Source: a virus | Reading direction: 5' to 3' (one strand) | Virus record (IMG/VR): IMGVR_UViG_3300035703_000230 | Coordinates: 1 to 36,789 of that record | DNA length: 36,789 nucleotides | Part shown: positions 3,205 to 36,789 of the stretch, piece after piece | Layout: the number at the start of each line of letters is the position of its first letter | How positions within the stretch are numbered: the stretch's first letter is position 1 | Translations under genes and position numbers: made by a program | Notes under the pieces: model-generated | Seen by the model: the letters and a program-made list of their open reading frames with translations, nothing else | What the model was told of the DNA's origin: nothing | Database searches by the model: none

Positions 3205-5139
3205 ATGGCACTTCAATCGCAAAGACTACGCCGGGATATCGACAAGACGGAGGTCCCAGAGACTGCCGTATTGTCTTTGGCTGCGTACATCGACAAGTGC
3301 TATCAGGAGGCGAAATCCGCCAAGGCGGATATCACTGAGCGCCTGCTGAAGTGTGAGCGCCAGCGTCGTGGCGAGTACGACCCGGACAAGCTTGCCCAGA
3401 TTCGACAGACGGGCGGCGCGGACATTTACATGATGCTCACGGACATTAAGTGCCGTGCAGCTGAGAGCTGGATCAAAGACGTCATGCTGTCGACCGGGCA
3501 GCAGACGTGGTCCTTGTCTCCCACTGTTGAGCCTTCACTACCCAACGAAATGCGTGAGGGCGTGATCGAGACCGTGGTCATGGAAGCCGATGCTGTTCAA
3601 CAGCAGGGCATGGCGATCGATCCCCGTGCGATCGATGCGCGCATGAAGGAGCTGTACGAGGCGGTCACGAAAGCTATCAACGACAAGGCGAAAGACGCTT
3701 CGTCGAAGATGGAGCGCCGCATGCAGGACAAGCTCGTTGAAGCGGGCTGGTCGGATACACAGGCTGAGCTGATCTATGACTTCGTGACGTTCCCGGCGGC
3801 GATCCTCAAGGGTCCTGTCGTGAAGAAGAAGCGCGCCCTGAAGTGGGGTCGCAACTTCAAGCCTGAGGTCTTCGAAGATATCGCCGAGTCCTTTGAGCGC
3901 GTCTCGCCGTATGACATCTTTCCGTCGCCTAACGCGGTCAACTGTCAGGACGGCTACATCATTCAGCGTCACCAGCTGACGCGCGCGGATCTCGCCGGAC
4001 TCCTCGGCACACCGGGCTACAACGACGACGCCATCAAGGCGGCGCTCGAACAGTACGGTCGCAGTGGAATGCAGTTCATGGAGCAGAGCGACAGCGAGCG
4101 CAACTTGCTCGAAGGTCGCAACCACACGCTCGTCGGCACGGAGATCATTGACTCGATTGAGTTCTGGGGTTCTGTCTCAGGCTCAATGCTCATCGAGTGG
4201 GGACTCACGAAAGACGTCGAGCCCGAGGGTGAGTACGAGGTCAACTGCTGGAAGGTGGGTTCGCACGTCATCAAAGCGATCAAGAACTCTGACCCGCTCG
4301 GTCGCCGTCCGTACTCTAAGGCGAGCTGGGAAGCGATCCCGGGCGCGTTCTGGGGCGTGGCGCTACCGGAAGTCATGCGTGACGTGCAGGTGATTTGCAA
4401 TGGCGCAGCGCGCGCTCTCTCGAACAACATGGGCATTGCGTCGGGTCCGCAGGTCGAGGTGAGCATTGATCGCTTGCCGGACGGCGAGAACCTGACGCAG
4501 ATGTATCCATGGAAGATTTGGCAGACGACTTCCGATCGCACCGGTGGTGGTCAGCCGGCTGTTCGTTTCTTCCAGCCGAACATGAACGCCGAAACTTTGA
4601 TGAACGTCATGCAGTACTTCCAGCGCGTGGCGGACGAAGTGACGGGTGTTCCCAATTACGTCTACGGCTCAACCTCGGTATCGGGCGCAGGACGCACAGC
4701 GTCTGGTCTTTCGATGTTGATGGAGAACGCCGCCAAGGGCATTAAGCAGGCAATCCTCTCGCTCGACAAAGCCATGAGCGAAATGCTGACCCGCCTCTAC
4801 GATCACCTGATGATCTACGACGACGATGTCTCCATTAAGGGTGACATGCAGATCGTGGCGTCTGGCGTGGTCGGTACGCTGCTCAAGGAAACGATGATGG
4901 CTCGCCGCAACGAGTTCATGCAGATGACGGCGAATCCGTTTGACCTGCAGATCATAGGACCCGCTGGTCGCGCTGAGCTGCTGCGTCAAGCAGCGAATGG
5001 TCTCAACATTGATGTCGACAAGATCGTGCCGAAGCCCGAGGAGATCCTCGCTGCTGAGAAGGCGCGACAAGAGGCGGAGGCTGCAGCCGCCGAGCAAGCC
5101 ATGATGCAGCAGCCACAACCGCAAGGAGTCATGCAATGA
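3205..5139 (+). CDS. Portal protein
   Basis: A 644-residue protein that forms the dodecameric ring at one capsid vertex, binding terminase during packaging and the connector afterwards. Supporting features are its position directly after terL, its length, an N-terminal segment with QIRQTGGADIYMMLTDIKCR and AAESWIKDVML, and a C-terminal long-helix region (YGSTSVSGAGRTASGLSMLM then ENAAKGIKQAILSLDKAMSE) typical of portal stem/wing helices. The C-terminal end is Ala/Glu/Gln-rich (about 610-644), as often seen in portal barrel helices. It resembles the portals of short-tailed phages with P22- or BPP-1-like structural modules. The stop overlaps the next start by ATGA. Confidence 0.92.
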   Translation: MALQSQRLRRDIDKTEVPETAVLSLAAYIDKCYQEAKSAKADITERLLKCERQRRGEYDPDKLAQIRQTGGADIYMMLTDIKCRAAESWIKDVMLSTGQQTWSLSPTVEPSLPNEMREGVIETVVMEADAVQQQGMAIDPRAIDARMKELYEAVTKAINDKAKDASSKMERRMQDKLVEAGWSDTQAELIYDFVTFPAAILKGPVVKKKRALKWGRNFKPEVFEDIAESFERVSPYDIFPSPNAVNCQDGYIIQRHQLTRADLAGLLGTPGYNDDAIKAALEQYGRSGMQFMEQSDSERNLLEGRNHTLVGTEIIDSIEFWGSVSGSMLIEWGLTKDVEPEGEYEVNCWKVGSHVIKAIKNSDPLGRRPYSKASWEAIPGAFWGVALPEVMRDVQVICNGAARALSNNMGIASGPQVEVSIDRLPDGENLTQMYPWKIWQTTSDRTGGGQPAVRFFQPNMNAETLMNVMQYFQRVADEVTGVPNYVYGSTSVSGAGRTASGLSMLMENAAKGIKQAILSLDKAMSEMLTRLYDHLMIYDDDVSIKGDMQIVASGVVGTLLKETMMARRNEFMQMTANPFDLQIIGPAGRAELLRQAANGLNIDVDKIVPKPEEILAAEKARQEAEAAAAEQAMMQQPQPQGVMQ

Positions 5140-5453
5140 GCAAGTGGGCATCGTTCGCCACAGGAATGGGCGAGGGCTACCTCGCTGGCAAGCGTTACAA
5201 GGACACGAAGAAAGAGCGCGACGAAGACCGTCAGATGATGAAAGACATCCTGATGTCTCGCGCTGAGAAGACCGCTACCGATCCGGTTGTAGCTGGTCCG
5301 TCTGCTTCGGTTGCGAGCAGCATGGTCGAGAGCGACCCGCTCGGAATCCGCAGCATGTATGACCCGGAGGCGAAAGCTAACGGCGGGATGGTCGGCGAAA
5401 TGCCGAAGCATCACGACAAGATGAGCTGGCAGCGCGGCTCGTTCAAGAAGTAA
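5136..5453 (+). CDS. Hypothetical protein between portal and scaffold (105 aa)
   Basis: A 105-residue protein with a short N-terminal segment (SKWASFATGMGEGYLAGKRY), a strongly charged helix (KDTKKERDEDRQMMKDILMS) and a glycine/methionine-rich tail (ANGGMVGEMPKHHDKMSW). The ATG overlaps the portal stop by four bases and the stop overlaps the next start (TAATG), so it belongs to a translationally coupled chain. I do not recognise the family. The position suggests a small head-assembly or packaged protein. Confidence 0.8.
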   Translation: MSKWASFATGMGEGYLAGKRYKDTKKERDEDRQMMKDILMSRAEKTATDPVVAGPSASVASSMVESDPLGIRSMYDPEAKANGGMVGEMPKHHDKMSWQRGSFKK

Positions 5454-8702: not shown

Positions 8703-9352
8703 TGGCGACGCTCAGCGACTTCTATCAGTACGTCATCCCCGAAGTACCGGGATGCCCAGAGGTGACCGCAGACGTAGCAATCCGTGCGGCACTTATCGAG
8801 TTCTGTGAGAAGACGCTGGTCATTCAGCGCGACCTTGACCCAGTCACCGTGGTGAAGGGGATTACCGACTACGACATCGACCCGCCAGCTAGTCAGCTGG
8901 TCAGCAGGTTGATGCGCGTTTGGTACAAGGATGTCGAGCTGACGCCGACTGCGCCGGACAACGTCCACAACGCCGAGGTCTACAACACGCTGTTCACGGG
9001 CGCCGACAAAGAGCGCTCTGACCCACGCATGTTTATCCAGAAGGATGAGCGGACGTTCTCGATCTACCCGATCCCTAAAGACACGGTTGCCAACGGGCTT
9101 ACCATACGCGCCGCCCTAAAACCTACCCGAAATGCGGAAACCATCGAGGACGTCCTGTTCGAGGACTACGCCGAGACGGTCGCCCATGGGGCGAAATACC
9201 GATTACTCAGCATGGCGAGTAAGCCGTGGACTAATGGTCCGGCGGCTAGCCTTGCACTTGCTGCGTTCAATAGCGGCATCAACGTCGCTCGCCAGCGCGC
9301 TTCCCGTGGACACACGCGCGCGGACCTGCGTGTCCGCCTGACAGGAGTCTGA
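8702..9352 (+). CDS. Putative neck/tail connector protein
   Basis: A 216-residue protein starting with MATLSDFYQYVIPEVPGCPE, with a helical segment (VAIRAALIEFCEKTLVIQRD) and beta-rich parts (SRLMRVWYKDVELTPTAP; RTFSIYPIPKDTVANGLTIR). It ends in an alpha-helical region and a basic terminus (ARQRASRGHTRADLRVRL). It overlaps the adaptor stop (TAATG). In several podovirus-like phages a protein with this start and layout follows the adaptor and is part of the tail hub or neck. The exact role is inferred from position. Confidence 0.7.
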   Translation: MATLSDFYQYVIPEVPGCPEVTADVAIRAALIEFCEKTLVIQRDLDPVTVVKGITDYDIDPPASQLVSRLMRVWYKDVELTPTAPDNVHNAEVYNTLFTGADKERSDPRMFIQKDERTFSIYPIPKDTVANGLTIRAALKPTRNAETIEDVLFEDYAETVAHGAKYRLLSMASKPWTNGPAASLALAAFNSGINVARQRASRGHTRADLRVRLTGV

Positions 9353-27590: not shown

Positions 27591-30500
27591 ATGGGTCTTT
27601 TGAATGCCTACCGAGATGTCACTGGAGATCCGTATTCCGGAACCGGAGAAGCGACCGAGAAGAACCGCGAGCGCGCAGCTGTTATTGAACAGAAGTCTGT
27701 GCGTGGCGGATTGCTTGGAGCGTATGACGACGTCCTGACGCAGCCGGCGAAATCTTTGCCCGCTCCAGACCCACTCGCGCGTCCGCAGGCAATACCGACA
27801 GACAAGGAATCGCGTCGACTGGAATACGGTGCCGGCGAGTTTGCCGAGGACGCCGGTCGTAAGGCGACTGGCGCATTGGTTGGCGGCACGCTCTCCATGC
27901 CCGCTGGCGCCGAGGCTGGCATCAAGGGCGCTATCCGTCGCGGCATTACGGGCGAGTCTCAGCCGGTGGCTGCTGGCGCTTTGCTGCAGAAGGCAAGCGA
28001 CTGGCTCATGGACGCCACGGGATTCATGTCGTACGCCGAGCAGGCGGAGAACCGCGAGAAAGCAGCGGTCGCATTTGACCGCCTAGTTTCTGGGGTGAAG
28101 ATCCCCGGGGCGGAAGGGCTTGCTGAGTACGGCTCACGGGTGCAGCGCGATATCGAGTCGGGCATCTCGGAGGCTGGCAAGCAGCGCCTCGAAGGTGCGA
28201 CCCCGCGCGGCAACATCCTCAAGGGCGAGTTCAGCTTTGGCGACGATCCGACCGTGTCCGGCTACCTCTTACAGGCAGCCGGCGTATTGGGCTCGCTCGC
28301 GCCCACTGTGGCGACAGCTGTCATTACCCGCAGCCCAACAGCGGCAATGGCTGTTGGCGGCACACAGGCGGCTGGAGAGGCTGCTAGCACGGCACGCGAG
28401 TACGTCGGCAACCTGTCCGACGAGCAGCTCACCGAGGTCAGCCCGTACTACAACACCTTGTTGCGTAACGGCGTGTCCACCGAGGAAGCCCGCCAGATCG
28501 TCACGGACAAGGCGGCAGAGACCGGCGCTTTACTGCAGGGCATGGTGGCAGCCCTTGGCTCCCGGGTTACCGGCAAGCTGCTAAACGGCGCCTACGACGA
28601 CATCCTGCGCCGCGTGGGTGGCAACCGAGCTGGCGCTACTGCCGCCGGCGCTGCTTTTGGCGCAACCGAGGAAGGTCTGCAGGAAACCGCTGAGGGTATC
28701 GCCTCTGACGTGGGCATCCGCTCGCAGATCACGAATAAAGAAATCGGCGAAGGCTCGGCTGCCAACTTGGTGCTAGGCGCACTGGGCGGCGCGCCGGTCG
28801 GCGCTATCAGCGGCGCAAAGTCCACGCCGGAAAGCGCCCTCGACGCTTACCTCAAGCGCGCGATCGACGGTTCTCGGGTTAATCAGGAATCCGTTGACCG
28901 ACAGGTCCGGGCAGCGCTCGACCCGAATCGCGATGTTGCACTTGACCCGCTGGAAAATATCCGCCCTGCGGACAGCGAGCTGGGTGACGTTGCTGTTCAA
29001 ACGCCGGGAACAGCTGTTGGCGTTCAACAAGACCGACCCGAACAGACTCCTGCTACGGCACAGGCTCAAAATCTGAGCCTGCCAGATACCCCGGAAAACA
29101 GCGCTGCAGTCAATCCTATAGACGCGGCACTTAGTCAGTCTGAAGACCAGTTTGTCGCTGAACTTGAAGCCAAACAGGCTGCTCAGGCAACAGCTGTTGA
29201 ACAGCCGCCTGAGGATAGCTTTACGGCTGCCGTGGCTAGCATGAAACAGGACCTCGGCTTAGACGAAGCTGACACCCTGAATCTTGGGTTGGTCACGACT
29301 GATACTCGCCTGAACCGTTTCAAGGGCGCGCTCGAATCCGCCTTCGGTGTGAAGGTCCACTTCGTCGACTTCGGCGAACAGTTGTCGACCGATACCGGCA
29401 AGCAGCTCGGTGCGTTCAGTGGTTACCGTTCTGGCGACACGATCCTTGTTAGTGCCAAGGACGTCGACTTGCTCGACACCACATGGCACGAACTGACCCA
29501 CGTACTGGAGACCCGGCATGCCGATGTCTACCAGACTCTGCGGGACACCGTGGTTCCCGCCATGGACGCCACGATCCGCCAGACGCTGATCGACAATCTG
29601 AACCAGCGCCGTCGTGCCGAGGTCGGTCGTGACATGACCCAGCGCGAGCTCGACTCGGAGCTCGTTGCGTACGTCGTGGGTGATCTCGTCCGCAACCCGC
29701 AGACGCTTGGTCAGATGTTCGATAGCTTCGAGAACCCCGAGGTCGCCAAGACTTTCCGCGACGTTCTCGCCGATGTGCTGCAGAAGATGTTGGCGGTCAT
29801 CAAGGGTCCGCAGTACATCAAGGAACGCGCACGACTGGTGGAAGCACAGAAGGCGGTGACGGCTGCGTTTGCTGAGTATCAAAAGCGTGAGACTCAGAAG
29901 CGCATGGCAGCCCCGGCACAGCCTGCTGCAGCGCCAGCCACTACAATGCCGCCTGCGCTCGCACAGAAAGTAGCGGTCGCCAACACGCCCAAGCCGCGGC
30001 TGAGGAACCCGTTCTTAGATCAGGACCCTGAAGCTACCCCAGCATCTCAGCAAGCCGCCCCTGTTGCCGCTGCGCCAACAGCTGCCCCGGTTGCGCAAGA
30101 CGCTTCTGCGGCTCCTGCAGCGCCCGCAACAGCACCCGGACAGCAGTCACAAACTGATACACCGCCCTCGACCGCCACAGAGCCTGCCGATGAAGCCGAC
30201 GCCTACAAGCGCGTTGGCGGTCAGTTCAACCGCGATATTCAGAAACGCGGCAAGCTCGCGTCTGACACGTTCAAGCAGGCGCTCGATCAAGATCCGCAGG
30301 GCATGGTCGATGAATACCTGCGTCGCTTTGGTCGCGAGGTGAACGCCGATCACGCACGTGAGCTGTCGCCGATCTACGTGGAGAACCCTGCGGTCTATGC
30401 CGCCTATGTCCACGAAGGCGCATCACGTCTGTCCAAGATGGTGTTCGACTACGTCCTTACTAACGCGGAGCAGGGCGACATCGTTCGCTTCACGGCTGGC

Positions 30501-33500
30501 GGCGGCGGATCAGGTAAGGGATTTGCGGTTAAGCAGCTCAACCTGCGATCGCCGAACGTCATTCTGTACGACGGCACACTTAGCAAACTTGATACCGCGA
30601 CTTCTTTGATTAACAAGTCGCTCGCGTCAGGACTGCCGACCGAGGTTTACTACATCAACTCGGACGCCATGGACTCGCTTGGTCGTGCCATGAAGCGTGC
30701 TGAGCGCGTAGGTCGTACGGTACCAATCGAGGTATTGGCTGAGGCTCACGACGGAGCATCTAACGTAGCGCGACAGCTGTTGACGCTGTTTGCAAACGTG
30801 CCTCTCCGCATCGTGAACAACGGAAAAAATGGTGTGGCGTACGGCTCCATCAATGATTTACCGCGGTATAATGTCGCCGACCTGAAGGAGAAGATGTATG
30901 CGGGACTCAACCGCAGAGTCAAAGAAGATGGATACCCAATCAACCTCGCAATCGGCTTCGCGCCAGATCGGTATTCTGGAGAAGCTGTCGAAGAGCAGCC
31001 CGCAGAACGAGACGATCGACCAGTTCGAGCAGCGTCAAGACGTGGAGTTGCTGGCGCGCCGTCAGCAGTTCGCGAACAGCTCGACCAACCCGCTGCAGCG
31101 CCTGTTGAAGAACCGGTAACGGTTTCTGTTTCGCCAGAGACAATACCGGCTGACACGAAGACACAGCAGACGACGTCCGCTCGTCGCACCAAGAAACCCG
31201 CAGAACCCGCTACACCGCCGAAGCCGCCGATCGACAGCGCCGTTGCGCAGTCCGTTGCGCGCTCACTCGGTCTGACCGACGAAGAGCTGCGCTCCACCTC
31301 GCTCGGTTATCAAACCGGCAAGTCCGGTGGCGATCAGTTCAATACGCCGCGACTGGGCGACCTGAAGGAGACCGTGCTCGGCATTGAGCGCGCTCGTCGG
31401 TTCAGTGGACTGCGCCAGCTCAGCATCGACAACGAGACGGATCAGGACGTCATTGCCAAGCTGATTGCCGCCGAGGCGTTGGCTGCGATCCGCGCTGGTC
31501 AAAGCGCGCAGGAGTGGTACGACTCCACGATTGCTCGCCTCATGGGCATGGCTGCGCTGAAGTATCCGGAGCTAGCGGACAACCGCGAGTCGCAGATGGC
31601 GTTCCGCCTTGCGATCGCCGTGTCGTCGCAGGGGCTGAACGTCGAGGACAACCTGACATTCGCTCTGCCCGTGTACGAGTACTACCGCGAGAACGGCGAG
31701 TTCCCTGAGCGCGGCTCGGGTGAAAGCTCCGCCGCCATGGCGAAGAACTTCCGCCTTGCCAACGAGCTGATGAGCGAGATGGGCAAGGACATGTTCATGC
31801 GCTTCCTTGAGACCCCGTTCACCGCCGGTGAGCTGAAGTCGATGGGATACAACGTCGACGAACTGGTCGACGAGAACGTGCTCGGTTCGTCCGTGTTCGG
31901 TCCGAAGATTGGCTTCGGGTTCTACTCGAACCTGTCCGGCAACTTTGAGCCGGTGACGATCGACATGTGGTTCATGCGAACCATTGGTCGCTTGACTGGA
32001 AAGCTGCGCGCGTTCGACGCCGAGAAGTTTGCCGGTCAGATCGCTCGCTTCCGTGCGTCGTTTGCACTCACGGGTGACAACGGTCTGTTCGCCAGCACAC
32101 GCAAGGCTGACGGCACCCAGATGTTCGACCCGGAGCTGGTAGCTCAGGCTGCCACGGACGACGAGTCGGCGATCGCGCTGGCACGTCTGGTCTCCCGGGC
32201 GCACGAGAAGGACTTCAAGGACAACCGCGAAGCCTTCGACAATCAGACCCGCGAGAAGAGCGAAATGGTGCTCGCCGCAGACACCATGATTCAGTCGCTC
32301 GATAAGCCGAAGGACGCGCCGGGTAACGGCACCGAGCGTCGCAACCTGCGCCAGATTGTTCGCAAGGCAGTCACGCTGGTGGAGGGCGTACACGGTAAGC
32401 GTGTGCCGCCTGCCGCTCTGCAGGCGCTCATTTGGTACCCTGAGCAGGAGCTGTACAAGTCGTTCGGCGTGAGGCTGCGGGTTACCAGCCAAGACTACGC
32501 GGGTGCTATCCGCAAGATTCTGGAGAAGGAGGGTTACAGTGGACGAGAACTCAGCGCAGCAGCCGAATCTGGATCAAGACGCCTACAGTCGCTGGCTGCA
32601 GAACCTCAGCAACGAGAAGATCAAGCAGCTGGCGAAACGGACCGCCGAGTTCGTGCGCTTGAGGGAGCAGAACGCGAAGTCTTCGTTGAGCGAAAACAAG
32701 ACGAGTTCGTCCTAAGACAGGAGCGCAAGAAGCCGCGCCGCAAGCGCGTCGTCTTCGAGGTCGCACCGGACCCCAACAACGAACAGCTGGTCGCAGCATG
32801 GCGTGAGCTGTCTCCTGAGCGCCGCGCGGAAATCAGTAACAAGATCGCCCGCCCGCTGATGAAGCGCATCGGCGACTTGTTTGAAACCCGTGTCCGCTTG
32901 TCCACTCAGGTGGGCAGCTATCTCGACGATACGAACCCCTCGTTCGCCATGCTGGTGGACTCAGGTGACGTGGTCGAGATCGCGAAGACCGCTGGCTTCG
33001 TTCTGTCGCAAGACAGCATGATTGCCTTCTCACCCAAGCCTTTTAAGGGCGGGGCAGAGACCGGTGCCGTCACGATCGACGTGGGCGACATCAATGCCAC
33101 ACAGGTGGACGAGATCTACCAGAAGCTGCGCCAGATCCGTGTCGGTGGCGAGCAGGTGGTTGGTGGGCAGTCGACTTTCAACGGTCAAATGGTCGTCCTC
33201 AACTACTCGAACGTAGACACCGAGACGCTTGCCAGCCTAATAAACACCCAACTGCAGAACGACTACGTAGTGCGAACCGCCGAGGTTTATACTGCGTTCC
33301 CAGAGAAACAGGAGTACGACTATGCCAGTCCAGAGAATGACCCCCGAGGAAAAGCAAAGGATCTTCGGGAACGGGGTCGTGCTCTTCGGGCAGAAGCCTC
33401 AGCCCTCCTCGCAGCCGAGCTCGGAATCGAAGACGCAGGAGACGTCCGAGCAGAGCCCGAGTCAGTCGGGCAATTCAGCCGAAGAGACGTTGAGCTAGCT

Positions 33501-36500
33501 GCCAACCAAGATCCTCGCGCGCCGAAACTTTTCGGCATCAGCGAGAACCCCTCCGTACTGCGCGCTGTCGGCGCGCCAGACCAGCTGCTCGTCATCGAGC
33601 CGCGCACAGTCGTCAAGGTCGTAAACCCCGAGTTCGTTGGTAAGTCTGCGAGCGCAGATGCTGTGCGCCGTACTGCGACTGGGCTTGTTGTACCGGCTGC
33701 CCCTCGCATTGCGCTGACCGTCGACGAGCTGCGCTCTGTGCCGCAGATGATCGCCGACCCGGTCGCTGTAATACGCAGTGAGGGCGGCACCATGACGCGC
33801 CGTTACGGCTACAAGGTCGTGCTCGACATGGTGAAGGACGGTAACCCCGTGGTCGCCATTGTCCACCCGGACGTGCGTTACGGAGGCGACAGGGCGTCCG
33901 AGATCGCCAGCGTGTATCCGGTGAACGAGCCGAACTCGCTGACCGAGATCAACCGGGAGCTGAATAGCAGCAACCTGTTGTACTTCAACAAGGGTAAGGC
34001 GGTTGCATTGTCAGGGAAGATCAAGGGCGGGTTACCCAGCCTTGCCAAGGTCGCCCCGACGACCGCGAAGAACCCGGGCTCAGTACCGAATCGCGCGTTC
34101 ACGCCGCTGCGTAACAGCAACTTCTCCCGCCGTGTGCCGATCCCCGGTCAGCGCTTTACGCTGCCGGCTCGTACGCTGCGCGAGAAGTACTTCGAGAACC
34201 TGTTCGAGAACCGCATGTCGCGCGTCGAAGACGTGCAACAGGCTGTTGAACAGCAGGGCGGTACGCTCGACATCCGTGATGCACAGGGCAATGTTATTGG
34301 CACCACTGATATCGCAAGCGCAAGCCAGCGTATGCGTGGCGCGGTGCGCGGTCGTCTCGATCGCTTCAAGAAGGAAGTCGAGATCCCGCTGATTGAGAAG
34401 GCGGCGAAGCTGGGCGTGAACCTCGACGAGGTCGCTCAGTACCTGTACGCGGTATACGCCCCGGAGCGTAACGCAATCATTCAGCAGCGCAACCCGACAC
34501 AGTTCGGCACTGACGGCGGCTCGGGCATGACCAACGTCGAAGCCATGCAGATCGTGGGCACCTTCCGTGCGCGCAGGGACTTCCCGCAGATCGCGCAGAT
34601 CGCGAGGGAGTTCCAGCGCATTACGCAGATGACGCAGAACGTCCTGCTTAGCGAAGGACTGGTTGAGCCGGCGGTCATTGCGCAGTGGAAGAAGGACAAC
34701 CCGAACTACGTCCCGCTTCGCGGCTTTGAGAACTTTGACGAAGCCACCGGTCAGTCCCTTGGCGTCGGATCGCCGGGACGAACCGACCCGCGAAACCCGT
34801 TCGTGAAGGTAGCCAAGGGTCGAGAGACCCGCGCCGGTCAGATCCTTGAGAACATCCTGAAGGACTACTCGGATGCCATCGTGCTCGCCGAGAAGAACAA
34901 GGTCTACCGCCTGCTCCTGCAGTTTGTCCGCGAAAACCCGGACCAAGAGCTGTGGCAGGTCAACGCACCTAAGGTCTCGCGCTCGTACTACAAGGGCGGC
35001 ATGTCCCCGCTTGGCTACGCGCAAGGAACCGTGCGTGTCGCCTTCGAGGTCAACGAGGACCCGAGCGAGACGATCGCAGTGCGTGTGCAGGGTAAGCCCG
35101 TGTTCATCCGCGTGAAAGACCCGGGCATGCTCGAAGACCTGCAAATGGCAGGCGCGATCGGCAGCGGCGATCAAGCGAAGCTGTACTTCCGCGTGTGGTC
35201 TGGCGTTATGCAGACGCTCGCGAAGCTACGTACCACTCTCTCGCCGGCGTTCGTGTTCATCGACGCTATTCGCAACACCGAGACTGGCGGCTTCTGGAAC
35301 TTGGTGAAGTATGGTCCGAAGACCGCAGCCAAAGCGTATGCACGTCTGTACAAAGCAGCGCGCGTGGCATGGAAGGCTGAGCGAGACGGCACGTGGCAGG
35401 GCAACAACGACACGATCACGATCCGTGAGCCGGGTCAGCCTGCGCGCACTGTCACGCTGAAGGAAGCCTACGACATGTACCGCGCTGATGGCGGCAAGGT
35501 CGGCTACCTCGACATCAAGGAAATCGAAGACATCCAGCAAGACATACAGCAGCGCTTCCGTGCTGCTCAGGCGTCTGGCTCACTTGATCCGCGCACCTAC
35601 GGCACACAGATGCTTGGCGTGGTGAACAAGGTCGAAGACCTGATGCTCGATGCCGCTGGCTCGATCGAAACCTCCATGCGATTCGCGACGTACTTAGCTC
35701 GCCTCGAAGCCGGCGCAAACCGGCAGGACGCGACCAACGCCGCAAAGAACGTGACGGTGAACTTCGATCGCAAGGGCAAGTGGACCCCACACCTTGGGCT
35801 GCTCTACATGTTTGCCAACGCGAACATTCAGGGTACCCGCGCGACGTACAACCTGATCTTCAAGTCAGGCAAAGCTGGCGCAATGCTCGGCGGTTCATTG
35901 ATTGCACTGGGCTATGCGATTGCGCAACTCGGCGCCGCCGACAGTGGGGATGACGACGAGCCTTACTGGGACAAGAAGCTATACAAGCAGGCAAAGATTA
36001 AGAACCTGCTGTTCTTCACCGAGGACGGAGACACCATCACCATCCCGATGGCGTACGGCTCTGGCTTCTTCGTGAACATCGGTTACGCGCTCAGCGACCT
36101 GCAGCGTGGGGTGCCGTTGGCGAAGGTTGGTGCTTTCATGCGCGACTCCTTCTTCACGCACTTCTCGCCGTTCGGTTCACTAGAGAACCCGGCGACGTTT
36201 GCGGCACCGACCTTGCTCGATCCGATCTTGGTCAGCGCTTCGAACATGACAGAGCAGGGTATCCCACTGATGCCGGACTCGGTGTACGAACCGAACAAGC
36301 CGGACAGCGAGAAGTTCTGGACGGCAACTCGCGGAACAATGTTCCAACAGCTGTCGCAAGCCATGAACGAGGCTACTGGCGGTACGCCGGCGTACTCGGG
36401 CGCCATCGACGTGTCGCCTGAAACGCTGCGCTACTGGTTCGGCTTTATGACCGGCGGTGCTGGCGGCTTCGCGCGCGACGCAGCTGACTCTGTGATGCTC

Positions 36501-36789
36501 ACCACAGAGATCGGTCTTGATGCAGCGATTGATAAGAACAAGATCCCGATTCTGCGCAGCTTCTATCAGCAGAACACTGGTAAGCAGAATCAGACCGAGT
36601 TCTTTGAGAACGCCAAGACTGCAGAGACTGCGCTCAACGAGCTGAACAGCTTGTGGGGCACGGAGTACATGCAGCGCGACGACGTGCGCGATCGGTTCGC
36701 AGAGCGACGCACACTCGCATCCATGGGTAGCGCTGTTCGCGGGTATCGAAACGAGCTTTCAGCTTTGCGAGCAGACGAAGTGAAGGTTA
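27591..36789 (+). CDS. Giant polyvalent protein (over 3066 aa, 3' end outside window)
   Basis: One open frame from ATG 27591 (AAGGGGAG upstream) to the window edge with no stop. Visible modules: residues about 95-420, Gly/Ala-rich hydrophobic segments; about 545-760, a zincin metallopeptidase with HELTH at 633-637; a Pro/Ala linker at 770-860; about 880-1110, a zeta-toxin-like kinase with Walker A GGGGSGKG at 970-977; about 1200-1650, an unnamed domain with GPKIGFGFYSNLSGNFEP and VTIDMWFMR (D1458); about 1710-1910, an unrecognised domain; about 1975-2140, a MuF C-terminal-like domain (SEIASVYPVNEPN, NLLYFNKGKA); about 2200-2700, an LPD38-like region (YAPERN, GSGMTN, IDAIRN); then a hydrophobic stretch near 2763-2785. 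Such proteins are injected with phage DNA to counter host defences. Domain edges are approximate. Confidence 0.92.
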   Translation, partial: MGLLNAYRDVTGDPYSGTGEATEKNRERAAVIEQKSVRGGLLGAYDDVLTQPAKSLPAPDPLARPQAIPTDKESRRLEYGAGEFAEDAGRKATGALVGGTLSMPAGAEAGIKGAIRRGITGESQPVAAGALLQKASDWLMDATGFMSYAEQAENREKAAVAFDRLVSGVKIPGAEGLAEYGSRVQRDIESGISEAGKQRLEGATPRGNILKGEFSFGDDPTVSGYLLQAAGVLGSLAPTVATAVITRSPTAAMAVGGTQAAGEAASTAREYVGNLSDEQLTEVSPYYNTLLRNGVSTEEARQIVTDKAAETGALLQGMVAALGSRVTGKLLNGAYDDILRRVGGNRAGATAAGAAFGATEEGLQETAEGIASDVGIRSQITNKEIGEGSAANLVLGALGGAPVGAISGAKSTPESALDAYLKRAIDGSRVNQESVDRQVRAALDPNRDVALDPLENIRPADSELGDVAVQTPGTAVGVQQDRPEQTPATAQAQNLSLPDTPENSAAVNPIDAALSQSEDQFVAELEAKQAAQATAVEQPPEDSFTAAVASMKQDLGLDEADTLNLGLVTTDTRLNRFKGALESAFGVKVHFVDFGEQLSTDTGKQLGAFSGYRSGDTILVSAKDVDLLDTTWHELTHVLETRHADVYQTLRDTVVPAMDATIRQTLIDNLNQRRRAEVGRDMTQRELDSELVAYVVGDLVRNPQTLGQMFDSFENPEVAKTFRDVLADVLQKMLAVIKGPQYIKERARLVEAQKAVTAAFAEYQKRETQKRMAAPAQPAAAPATTMPPALAQKVAVANTPKPRLRNPFLDQDPEATPASQQAAPVAAAPTAAPVAQDASAAPAAPATAPGQQSQTDTPPSTATEPADEADAYKRVGGQFNRDIQKRGKLASDTFKQALDQDPQGMVDEYLRRFGREVNADHARELSPIYVENPAVYAAYVHEGASRLSKMVFDYVLTNAEQGDIVRFTAGGGGSGKGFAVKQLNLRSPNVILYDGTLSKLDTATSLINKSLASGLPTEVYYINSDAMDSLGRAMKRAERVGRTVPIEVLAEAHDGASNVARQLLTLFANVPLRIVNNGKNGVAYGSINDLPRYNVADLKEKMYAGLNRRVKEDGYPINLAIGFAPDRYSGEAVEEQPAERDDRPVRAASRRGVAGAPSAVREQLDQPAAAPVEEPVTVSVSPETIPADTKTQQTTSARRTKKPAEPATPPKPPIDSAVAQSVARSLGLTDEELRSTSLGYQTGKSGGDQFNTPRLGDLKETVLGIERARRFSGLRQLSIDNETDQDVIAKLIAAEALAAIRAGQSAQEWYDSTIARLMGMAALKYPELADNRESQMAFRLAIAVSSQGLNVEDNLTFALPVYEYYRENGEFPERGSGESSAAMAKNFRLANELMSEMGKDMFMRFLETPFTAGELKSMGYNVDELVDENVLGSSVFGPKIGFGFYSNLSGNFEPVTIDMWFMRTIGRLTGKLRAFDAEKFAGQIARFRASFALTGDNGLFASTRKADGTQMFDPELVAQAATDDESAIALARLVSRAHEKDFKDNREAFDNQTREKSEMVLAADTMIQSLDKPKDAPGNGTERRNLRQIVRKAVTLVEGVHGKRVPPAALQALIWYPEQELYKSFGVRLRVTSQDYAGAIRKILEKEGYSGRELSAAAESGSRRLQSLAAEPQQREDQAAGETDRRVRALEGAEREVFVERKQDEFVLRQERKKPRRKRVVFEVAPDPNNEQLVAAWRELSPERRAEISNKIARPLMKRIGDLFETRVRLSTQVGSYLDDTNPSFAMLVDSGDVVEIAKTAGFVLSQDSMIAFSPKPFKGGAETGAVTIDVGDINATQVDEIYQKLRQIRVGGEQVVGGQSTFNGQMVVLNYSNVDTETLASLINTQLQNDYVVRTAEVYTAFPEKQEYDYASPENDPRGKAKDLRERGRALRAEASALLAAELGIEDAGDVRAEPESVGQFSRRDVELAANQDPRAPKLFGISENPSVLRAVGAPDQLLVIEPRTVVKVVNPEFVGKSASADAVRRTATGLVVPAAPRIALTVDELRSVPQMIADPVAVIRSEGGTMTRRYGYKVVLDMVKDGNPVVAIVHPDVRYGGDRASEIASVYPVNEPNSLTEINRELNSSNLLYFNKGKAVALSGKIKGGLPSLAKVAPTTAKNPGSVPNRAFTPLRNSNFSRRVPIPGQRFTLPARTLREKYFENLFENRMSRVEDVQQAVEQQGGTLDIRDAQGNVIGTTDIASASQRMRGAVRGRLDRFKKEVEIPLIEKAAKLGVNLDEVAQYLYAVYAPERNAIIQQRNPTQFGTDGGSGMTNVEAMQIVGTFRARRDFPQIAQIAREFQRITQMTQNVLLSEGLVEPAVIAQWKKDNPNYVPLRGFENFDEATGQSLGVGSPGRTDPRNPFVKVAKGRETRAGQILENILKDYSDAIVLAEKNKVYRLLLQFVRENPDQELWQVNAPKVSRSYYKGGMSPLGYAQGTVRVAFEVNEDPSETIAVRVQGKPVFIRVKDPGMLEDLQMAGAIGSGDQAKLYFRVWSGVMQTLAKLRTTLSPAFVFIDAIRNTETGGFWNLVKYGPKTAAKAYARLYKAARVAWKAERDGTWQGNNDTITIREPGQPARTVTLKEAYDMYRADGGKVGYLDIKEIEDIQQDIQQRFRAAQASGSLDPRTYGTQMLGVVNKVEDLMLDAAGSIETSMRFATYLARLEAGANRQDATNAAKNVTVNFDRKGKWTPHLGLLYMFANANIQGTRATYNLIFKSGKAGAMLGGSLIALGYAIAQLGAADSGDDDEPYWDKKLYKQAKIKNLLFFTEDGDTITIPMAYGSGFFVNIGYALSDLQRGVPLAKVGAFMRDSFFTHFSPFGSLENPATFAAPTLLDPILVSASNMTEQGIPLMPDSVYEPNKPDSEKFWTATRGTMFQQLSQAMNEATGGTPAYSGAIDVSPETLRYWFGFMTGGAGGFARDAADSVMLTTEIGLDAAIDKNKIPILRSFYQQNTGKQNQTEFFENAKTAETALNELNSLWGTEYMQRDDVRDRFAERRTLASMGSAVRGYRNELSALRADEVKV
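30898..31119 (+). CDS. Nested small gene 1 inside the giant gene (73 aa, +1 frame)
   Basis: ATG at 30898 has AAGGAG (30885-30890) seven bases upstream. The product MRDSTAESKKMDTQSTSQSA, SRQIGILEKLSKSSPQNETI, DQFEQRQDVELLARRQQFAN ending LQRLLKNR is a plausible polar helical protein. Third codon positions are G or C in 59 of 72 sense codons after the start, whereas the giant frame over the same bases has 30 of 72. The giant frame here encodes the linker after its kinase domain (residues about 1103-1177). I counted these by hand. Function unknown. Confidence 0.55.
   Translation: MRDSTAESKKMDTQSTSQSASRQIGILEKLSKSSPQNETIDQFEQRQDVELLARRQQFANSSTNPLQRLLKNR
32539..32715 (+). CDS. Nested small gene 2 inside the giant gene (58 aa, +1 frame)
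   Basis: GTG at 32539 with AGGAGGG at 32527-32533, a near-perfect ribosome binding site five bases upstream. Product: MDENSAQQPNLDQDAYSRWL, QNLSNEKIKQLAKRTAEFVR and a Ser/Asn/Lys-rich end. Third positions are G or C in 49 of 58 codons, against 22 of 58 for the giant frame over the same bases. The giant frame there reads as an Arg/Glu/Ala-rich linker between its domains (residues about 1650-1709). The frame is the same +1 frame as nested genes 1 and 3. Function unknown. Confidence 0.55.
   Translation: MDENSAQQPNLDQDAYSRWLQNLSNEKIKQLAKRTAEFVRLREQNAKSSLSENKTSSS
33322..33498 (+). CDS. Nested small gene 3 inside the giant gene (58 aa, +1 frame)
   Basis: ATG at 33322 with AGGAG at 33310-33314 seven bases upstream. 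Product: MPVQRMTPEEKQRIFGNGVV, LFGQKPQPSSQPSSESKTQE and a Ser/Gln/Glu-rich tail. The N-terminal PEEKQRIFGNGVVLFG looks like a folded or peptide-binding segment, the rest disordered. Third positions are G or C in 48 of 58 codons versus 28 of 58 in the giant frame. The giant frame here is the linker just before its MuF-C-like domain (residues about 1911-1970). It is the most protein-like of the three nested ORFs. Confidence 0.55.
   Translation: MPVQRMTPEEKQRIFGNGVVLFGQKPQPSSQPSSESKTQETSEQSPSQSGNSAEETLS

Follow-up and report, generated by a model that had tools for sequence, protein, structure and literature searches.

Conserved reading frames nested in the interdomain linkers of giant phage polyvalent genes are probably small protein-coding genes

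A giant polyvalent gene with three nested reading frames

The window, by which we mean the whole stretch of DNA analyzed here, is a 36,789-base IMG/VR virus record in which a giant open reading frame (ORF) runs from position 27591 to the contig end. Its product carries unrelated domains on one polypeptide, including the Pfam domains Zeta_toxin, MuF_C and LPD38 and a HELTH zincin motif, and its C-terminal part resembles the DarB-like genes of cultured phages, Burkholderia and Vibrio phages among them. The gene is thereby like those of the polyvalent or DarB-like antirestriction proteins, in which several unrelated domains share one polypeptide and for which injection with the phage DNA has been inferred as a class (Iyer et al, 2017; PMC5512222). 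Three short ORFs, termed n1, n2 and n3, lie inside the giant gene, each preceded by a Shine-Dalgarno (SD) sequence:

27591..36788, + strand: giant DarB-like polyvalent gene, one ORF of 3066 codons that runs off the contig
29268..29813, + strand: zincin-like metallopeptidase module, HELTH at codon 633 (29487), without a nested gene at its end
30243..30920, + strand: zeta-toxin-like kinase module, host of n1 (Pfam PF06414, E 4.5e-13)
30885..30890, + strand: SD sequence of n1, AAGGAG, 7 nt spacing
30898..31119, + strand: n1, 73 codons, ATG at 30898, +1 relative to the giant frame
31221..32520, + strand: mod2, the VTIDMWF module, host of n2 (81 copies in relatives)
32526..32532, + strand: SD sequence of n2, AAGGAGG, 6 nt spacing
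32539..32715, + strand: n2, 58 codons, GTG at 32539, +1 relative to the giant frame
32727..33326, + strand: mod3, an undescribed module, host of n3 (35 copies, order relative to mod2 varies)
33310..33314, + strand: SD sequence of n3, AGGAG, 7 nt spacing
33322..33498, + strand: n3, 58 codons, ATG at 33322, +1 relative to the giant frame
33711..34001, + strand: MuF_C module (Pfam PF18819, E 1.1e-13), without a nested gene at its end

The kinase module contains a Walker A motif, GGGGSGKG, at codon 970 (30498). The mod2 module is predicted to be all-helical (AlphaFold2 pLDDT 89.5) and weakly resembles DUF7178; its predicted fold gave no significant match in Foldseek, and its top match in VIA was PUGT gp46, the glycinyltransferase of phage PaMx11 (Z 7.1). 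Judged from the predicted model, mod2 may at best weakly resemble a phage DNA-base transferase, a likeness that is suggestive only. For mod3, AlphaFold2 predicts a tandem ferredoxin-like fold (pLDDT 88.5), with VIA matches to the AcrB porter (Z 9.5) and a phage SAM lyase (Z 7.5); the tandem ferredoxin-like arrangement is a common one, and we do not claim a function for mod3 from these matches.

The window and a closely related contig (L002) break off at the same base, position 36789 of the window, just past the last giant codon seen. When the end of the window is joined to its start, the giant ORF would close about eight codons later. The shared contig end and the closing of the giant ORF suggest that the record may be circular or have a common physical end.

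The three +1 ORFs and their AGGAG-type sites had been proposed in a first-pass annotation of the window, and both stand at the coordinates given there, with SD spacings of 7, 6 and 7 nt. All three ORFs lie at module junctions, again as proposed, except that n3 is better placed after mod3, a module absent from that annotation, than before the MuF_C module. The G/C contrast that had been counted by hand at third positions is reproduced by computed values: across n1, n2 and n3 the giant frame has a GC3 of 0.41, 0.37 and 0.48, compared to 0.71 for the whole giant gene, and a GC1, which equals the nested GC3, of 0.81, 0.83 and 0.81. The giant-frame dips are strong (z -5.0, -4.8 and -3.6, respectively). 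The accompanying caveat, that codon bias alone falls short of proof, also holds, with further GC3 dips at 28983-29201 and 30075-30164 in linkers without a convincing nested ORF. Moreover, when synonymous codons of the giant gene were shuffled, the longest +1 ORF had a median length of 158 aa, and the n1-n3 intervals remained free of +1 stops in 10-63% of shuffles. ORFs of this length are therefore expected in the +1 frame of shuffled giants, and the window by itself proves nothing; it is the comparison with relatives, below, that raises all three well beyond chance. Searches of n1, n2 and n3 against Pfam and PHROG returned no match, the other nested proteins described below likewise gave nothing convincing, and n2 gave chance matches only among named phages.

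Conservation of the nested frames and selection on both frames

A profile scan of viral contigs for mod2 yielded 80 loci, mostly at 47-65% identity, and two bacterial genome assemblies also have mod2 with a nested n2. A nested +1 ORF is present at the 3' end of mod2 in 81/81 copies and at the 3' end of the zeta-like kinase in all 17 copies, each of the latter with an SD sequence before n1. At the 3' end of mod3, 32 of 35 copies pass our filter, and the other three retain the ATG and the ORF with a weak SD sequence. No such ORF was found at other modules (0/72: N-terminal 0/6, zincin 0/14, MuF_C 0/3, central 0/25 and LPD38 0/24). Conversely, no copy of the kinase, mod2 or mod3 without its nested ORF was found among the relatives. 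The first-pass annotation had regarded loss of the start, the ORF or the ribosome-binding site in homologs as decisive against nested genes; start and ORF persist in all relatives except those truncated at the end of a contig, and three n3 copies alone lack a usable SD sequence.

The nested starts are tightly placed. In all mod2 copies not truncated by a contig end, n2 begins 16-22 nt past the last conserved residues of mod2, with an SD sequence and an ATG or GTG codon. Start codons are ATG for n1 (17/17) and n3 (35/35), and ATG (70) or GTG (12) for n2, with an SD spacing mostly of 5-9 nt across copies. The giant-frame codon that holds the nested start ends in T, never in the synonymous C, in 134/134 cases, and at n3 is always TAT; log10 P for this third-base T is -6.2 for n1, -12.9 for n2 and -8.4 for n3 (10, 25 and 15 independent lineages, respectively). 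The n2 relatives form one recognizable family with the motif M-x-N-x-S-A-Q-Q-P-N-L-D-Q-D-x-H. Those of n1 fall into two subfamilies, one including the window, L002 and L007, and a wider-spread one with a terminal motif like L-A-G-K-E-T-P. Relatives of n3 are present in two uncultured podovirus records, MW202640 and MW202722.

We estimated dN/dS in both frames by a simple OLGenie-like count on independent pairs, uncorrected for multiple hits. Over n2, the nested frame gave 0.40 (0.29-0.54) and the giant frame 1.38 (1.14-1.66); in a mod2 control with matching phases, the values were 0.73-0.92 for the nested frame and 0.14-0.19 for the giant frame. These data show that selection changes frame over n2, with amino-acid constraint falling on the nested frame and the giant frame unconstrained yet open. 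Similarly, the first 36 n2 codons have a BLOSUM score of 55 in the nested frame versus 29 in the giant frame on identical bases. Over n1, nested dN/dS was 0.25 (0.06-0.36), giant 0.37 and the control about 1, from four pairs only; over n3, nested dN/dS was 0.46 (0.39-0.54, 27 codons), just under the nearest control at 0.54, and giant dN/dS was 0.76. Nested and giant frames are conserved about equally at n1 and n3. Nested dN/dS was thus lower than the control at n1, n2 and n3, and the per-frame analysis that the first-pass annotation had proposed left its nested genes standing. Overall, these comparisons indicate purifying selection on the inner frame beyond that on the outer frame, clearly for n2 and n1, weakly for n3, and also for the n4 family described below.

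Across all nested ORF pairs, the nested protein is better conserved than the giant frame in 2449/3544 pairs in the +1 frame and in 0/175 in the +2 control. The giant frame is nonetheless open in all copies: when nested codons were redrawn synonymously and the giant frame checked for stops, the median probability of an open giant frame given the nested protein was 0.017 for n2, 0.04 for n1 and 0.08 for n3. Constraint on the nested frame together with an always-open giant frame indicates that both are used, the nested frame for its amino acids and the giant frame at least as a linker. Over n2, the giant frame accepts almost any residue and is kept stop-free, linking to the next module.

From this comparative evidence, n1, n2 and n3 are very probably real protein-coding genes, set in the +1 frame across interdomain linkers and served by their own internal ribosome-binding sites on the giant mRNA, at which ribosomes are predicted to start. 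Two readings without such genes can be weighed against the same data. If the +1 frames were open through the codon composition of a GC-rich gene, with nothing translated, window ORFs no longer than those of shuffled genes and GC3 dips in other linkers would both be expected, as found. The conserved starts and families, selection in the nested frame, and the counts of 0/72 at other modules and 0/175 in +2 speak against such shadow ORFs, which we consider refuted by the comparative data and give almost no credence. Programmed +1 frameshifting, in which the nested sequence would be an alternative C-terminus and the SD-like sequence a stimulator, fits the presence of an SD-like sequence upstream of each junction and the +1 phase of all families. 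A frameshift requires no start codon, however. Almost all copies conserve an ATG or GTG at the same position, with an SD spacing mostly of 5-9 nt and the third-base T, which makes frameshifting very improbable.

A fourth nested +1 family, n4 (~125 aa), occurs in DarB-like giant genes of cultured phages, among them Serratia phage Parlo, Pseudomonas phage Skulduggery, Klebsiella phage ZX1, Ruegeria phage 45A6 and Vibrio phages. In our scan, n4 was overlapped by the giant frame in 44/44 loci and began with ATG in 43 and GTG in one. Its nested dN/dS is 0.45-0.48 and that of the giant frame 1.1-1.56, and the nested protein is more conserved in 890/890 pairs; flank controls for n4 pairs fell out of register and were set aside. 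The 120-aa nested ORF of Ruegeria phage 45A6 has relatives at 32-36% identity, all in the +1 frame within giant genes. Where tested, n4 stands directly before the giant's helicase-methylase part; it is not tied to the module that precedes it, the giant sequence upstream being not conserved where n4 is. Burkholderia phages BcepIL02 and JC1 have a nested +1 ORF of 107-112 aa, over which GC3 of the giant frame drops from about 0.88 to 0.44. In P1, neither darB and ddrB nor sit and darA showed a nested ORF of similar quality, and the lack of comparable ORFs in P1 darB and ddrB indicates that the feature is common but not universal. Another nested +1 family (MSARQAQLYPHLQEALDARVLSTNEAW...) lies in the N-terminal half of the giant gene in three loci (L020 2936-3142, L018 2954-3160 and L024 2942-3139), with SD sequences present and GC3 dips to 0.30-0.39. 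One further locus (PQ492659, L086) belongs to Limnohabitans phage DC33, which GenBank files under Inoviridae; with a 39-kb genome and a giant polyvalent gene, it looks like a tailed phage.

None of the GenBank records examined lists the nested ORFs, which gene callers drop because they lie within a larger gene. In keeping with the first-pass annotation, the open-access literature searched yielded no account of small genes nested within polyvalent or DarB-like ones, and a word search of the text of PMC5512222 returned nothing on nested genes. By comparison of their sequences, these ORFs make up an unannotated class of conserved small genes, located in interdomain linkers of phage proteins that are among the longest. 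They are spread across uncultured phages and phages that infect Burkholderia, Pseudomonas, Serratia, Klebsiella, Vibrio and Ruegeria.

Association with modules and possible roles

Module order varies among loci: the window has mod2 followed by mod3, and L043, L045 and L067 have mod3 followed by mod2, with the zeta-like kinase in a separate gene. Each nested family belongs to one module and stays with it although the order is reshuffled. Nested genes accompany the reshuffled modules and not other modules, suggesting that each family encodes a module-specific partner.

Our favored guess, offered tentatively, is that each nested gene encodes a cognate partner or antidote for the module with which it overlaps. 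Such a partner would most likely bind its module during virion production and keep silent, soluble or correctly loaded an effector that would be injected into the next host; the zeta-like kinase might be an example. Because they overlap, effector and partner would stay linked when phages recombine, and their translation would be coupled. The zeta-epsilon and PezT-PezA toxin-antitoxin systems match a zeta-like kinase with a small protein of its own. An antidote would be most naturally expected for the kinase here, and n1 is similarly a small protein paired with a kinase; unlike in those systems, it overlaps the kinase gene out of frame, and it resembles no known antitoxin family in Pfam or PHROG. 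A bolder and slightly less likely proposal is that polyvalent proteins are built from effector cassettes. Each cassette would join an effector domain to a dedicated antidote or chaperone, whose gene would lie out of frame in the linker that comes next, in which case recombination could not part effector from partner. Were the small proteins partners of particular modules, they would show how a phage can produce effectors for injection and still be produced unharmed itself, and would offer a physical handle on each unknown module.

The nested genes might instead encode small phage proteins whose functions have nothing to do with the modules. They would sit in linkers because this saves space, and would move with the modules only through physical linkage. 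We regard this as a serious possibility, though short of an even chance, and about equally likely as the partner model. It accounts for n4, which is conserved where the preceding giant sequence is not, and for the exchange of C-terminal tails between the n2 and n3 families, such tails being common to n2 and n3 of different phages. In MW202722 (L156), tandem nested ORFs at 4802-5008 and 5012-5197 lie within one linker; in other phages (L032 and L065), n3 or n2 has the second of them (EEEGIRMEALRRLRVRRL) as its C-terminal tail. Against independent cargo, n2 and n3 relatives are never found apart from their modules, nor the modules without them, despite the shuffling of module order.

A cassette exchange is visible in L002, which matches the window at 96-98% identity to either side of an exchanged segment (L002 6919-9001, window 31119-33498). 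The upstream break falls directly past the n1 stop codon and the downstream break within the n3 tail, both at 3' ends of nested genes. The block mod2-n2-mod3-n3 is replaced by a DUF7178-like module, which matches DUF7178 at threshold and aligns weakly to mod2, and a second module with a nested ORF (8789-9001); the new nested ORF carries the old n3 tail.

Lambda Rz1, encoded within Rz, is a small out-of-frame gene inside another, with its own ribosome-binding site. Rz and Rz1 form one functional pair, whereas three or more unrelated nested genes occur along one giant phage gene here. In eukaryotic viruses, the spacer of the hepatitis B virus polymerase overlaps pre-S, and a linker in apple stem grooving virus overlaps the movement protein (reviewed in PMC8227390). 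As in these two viruses, a fast-evolving interdomain linker shares its bases with a conserved protein encoded in a different frame. Each of those is a lone example in a small virus; in giant phage genes, several unrelated nested genes are found repeatedly at the ends of modules and travel with them.

Origin of the overlaps

The first-pass annotation held that the nested frames are the older ones, and that the giant frame was extended across small genes that once stood between separate module genes. Its premise that the nested frames are genuine and lie at junctions agrees with our data, and over n2 and n4 the nested frame carries the amino-acid constraint; their greater age does not follow from this. 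In favor of fusion, selection over n2 and n4 acts chiefly in the nested frame, and codon usage slightly favors that frame (48/62 for n2, a weak preference). Among about 180 loci, however, we found no unfused relative, and profile scans for n2, n3 and n4 recovered overlapped copies only. Moreover, even in genes that have no module after mod2, a tail of about 120-130 codons covers the whole of n2. We consider an origin by fusion plausible at somewhat less than an even chance.

The overlaps provide a clean natural test of whether genes are born in linkers or linkers form across genes, and their phase bears on the choice. All nested families are in +1, and by our reasoning a +2 phase would be expected from ATGA-type junctions between genes, which are common. 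Inside a gene of this kind, new ORFs with an SD sequence arise about 13 times more often in +1 than in +2, so the observed phase is favored about 13 to 1 by overprinting. Birth of the nested genes within existing linkers would fit their exclusive +1 phase at least as well as fusion does.
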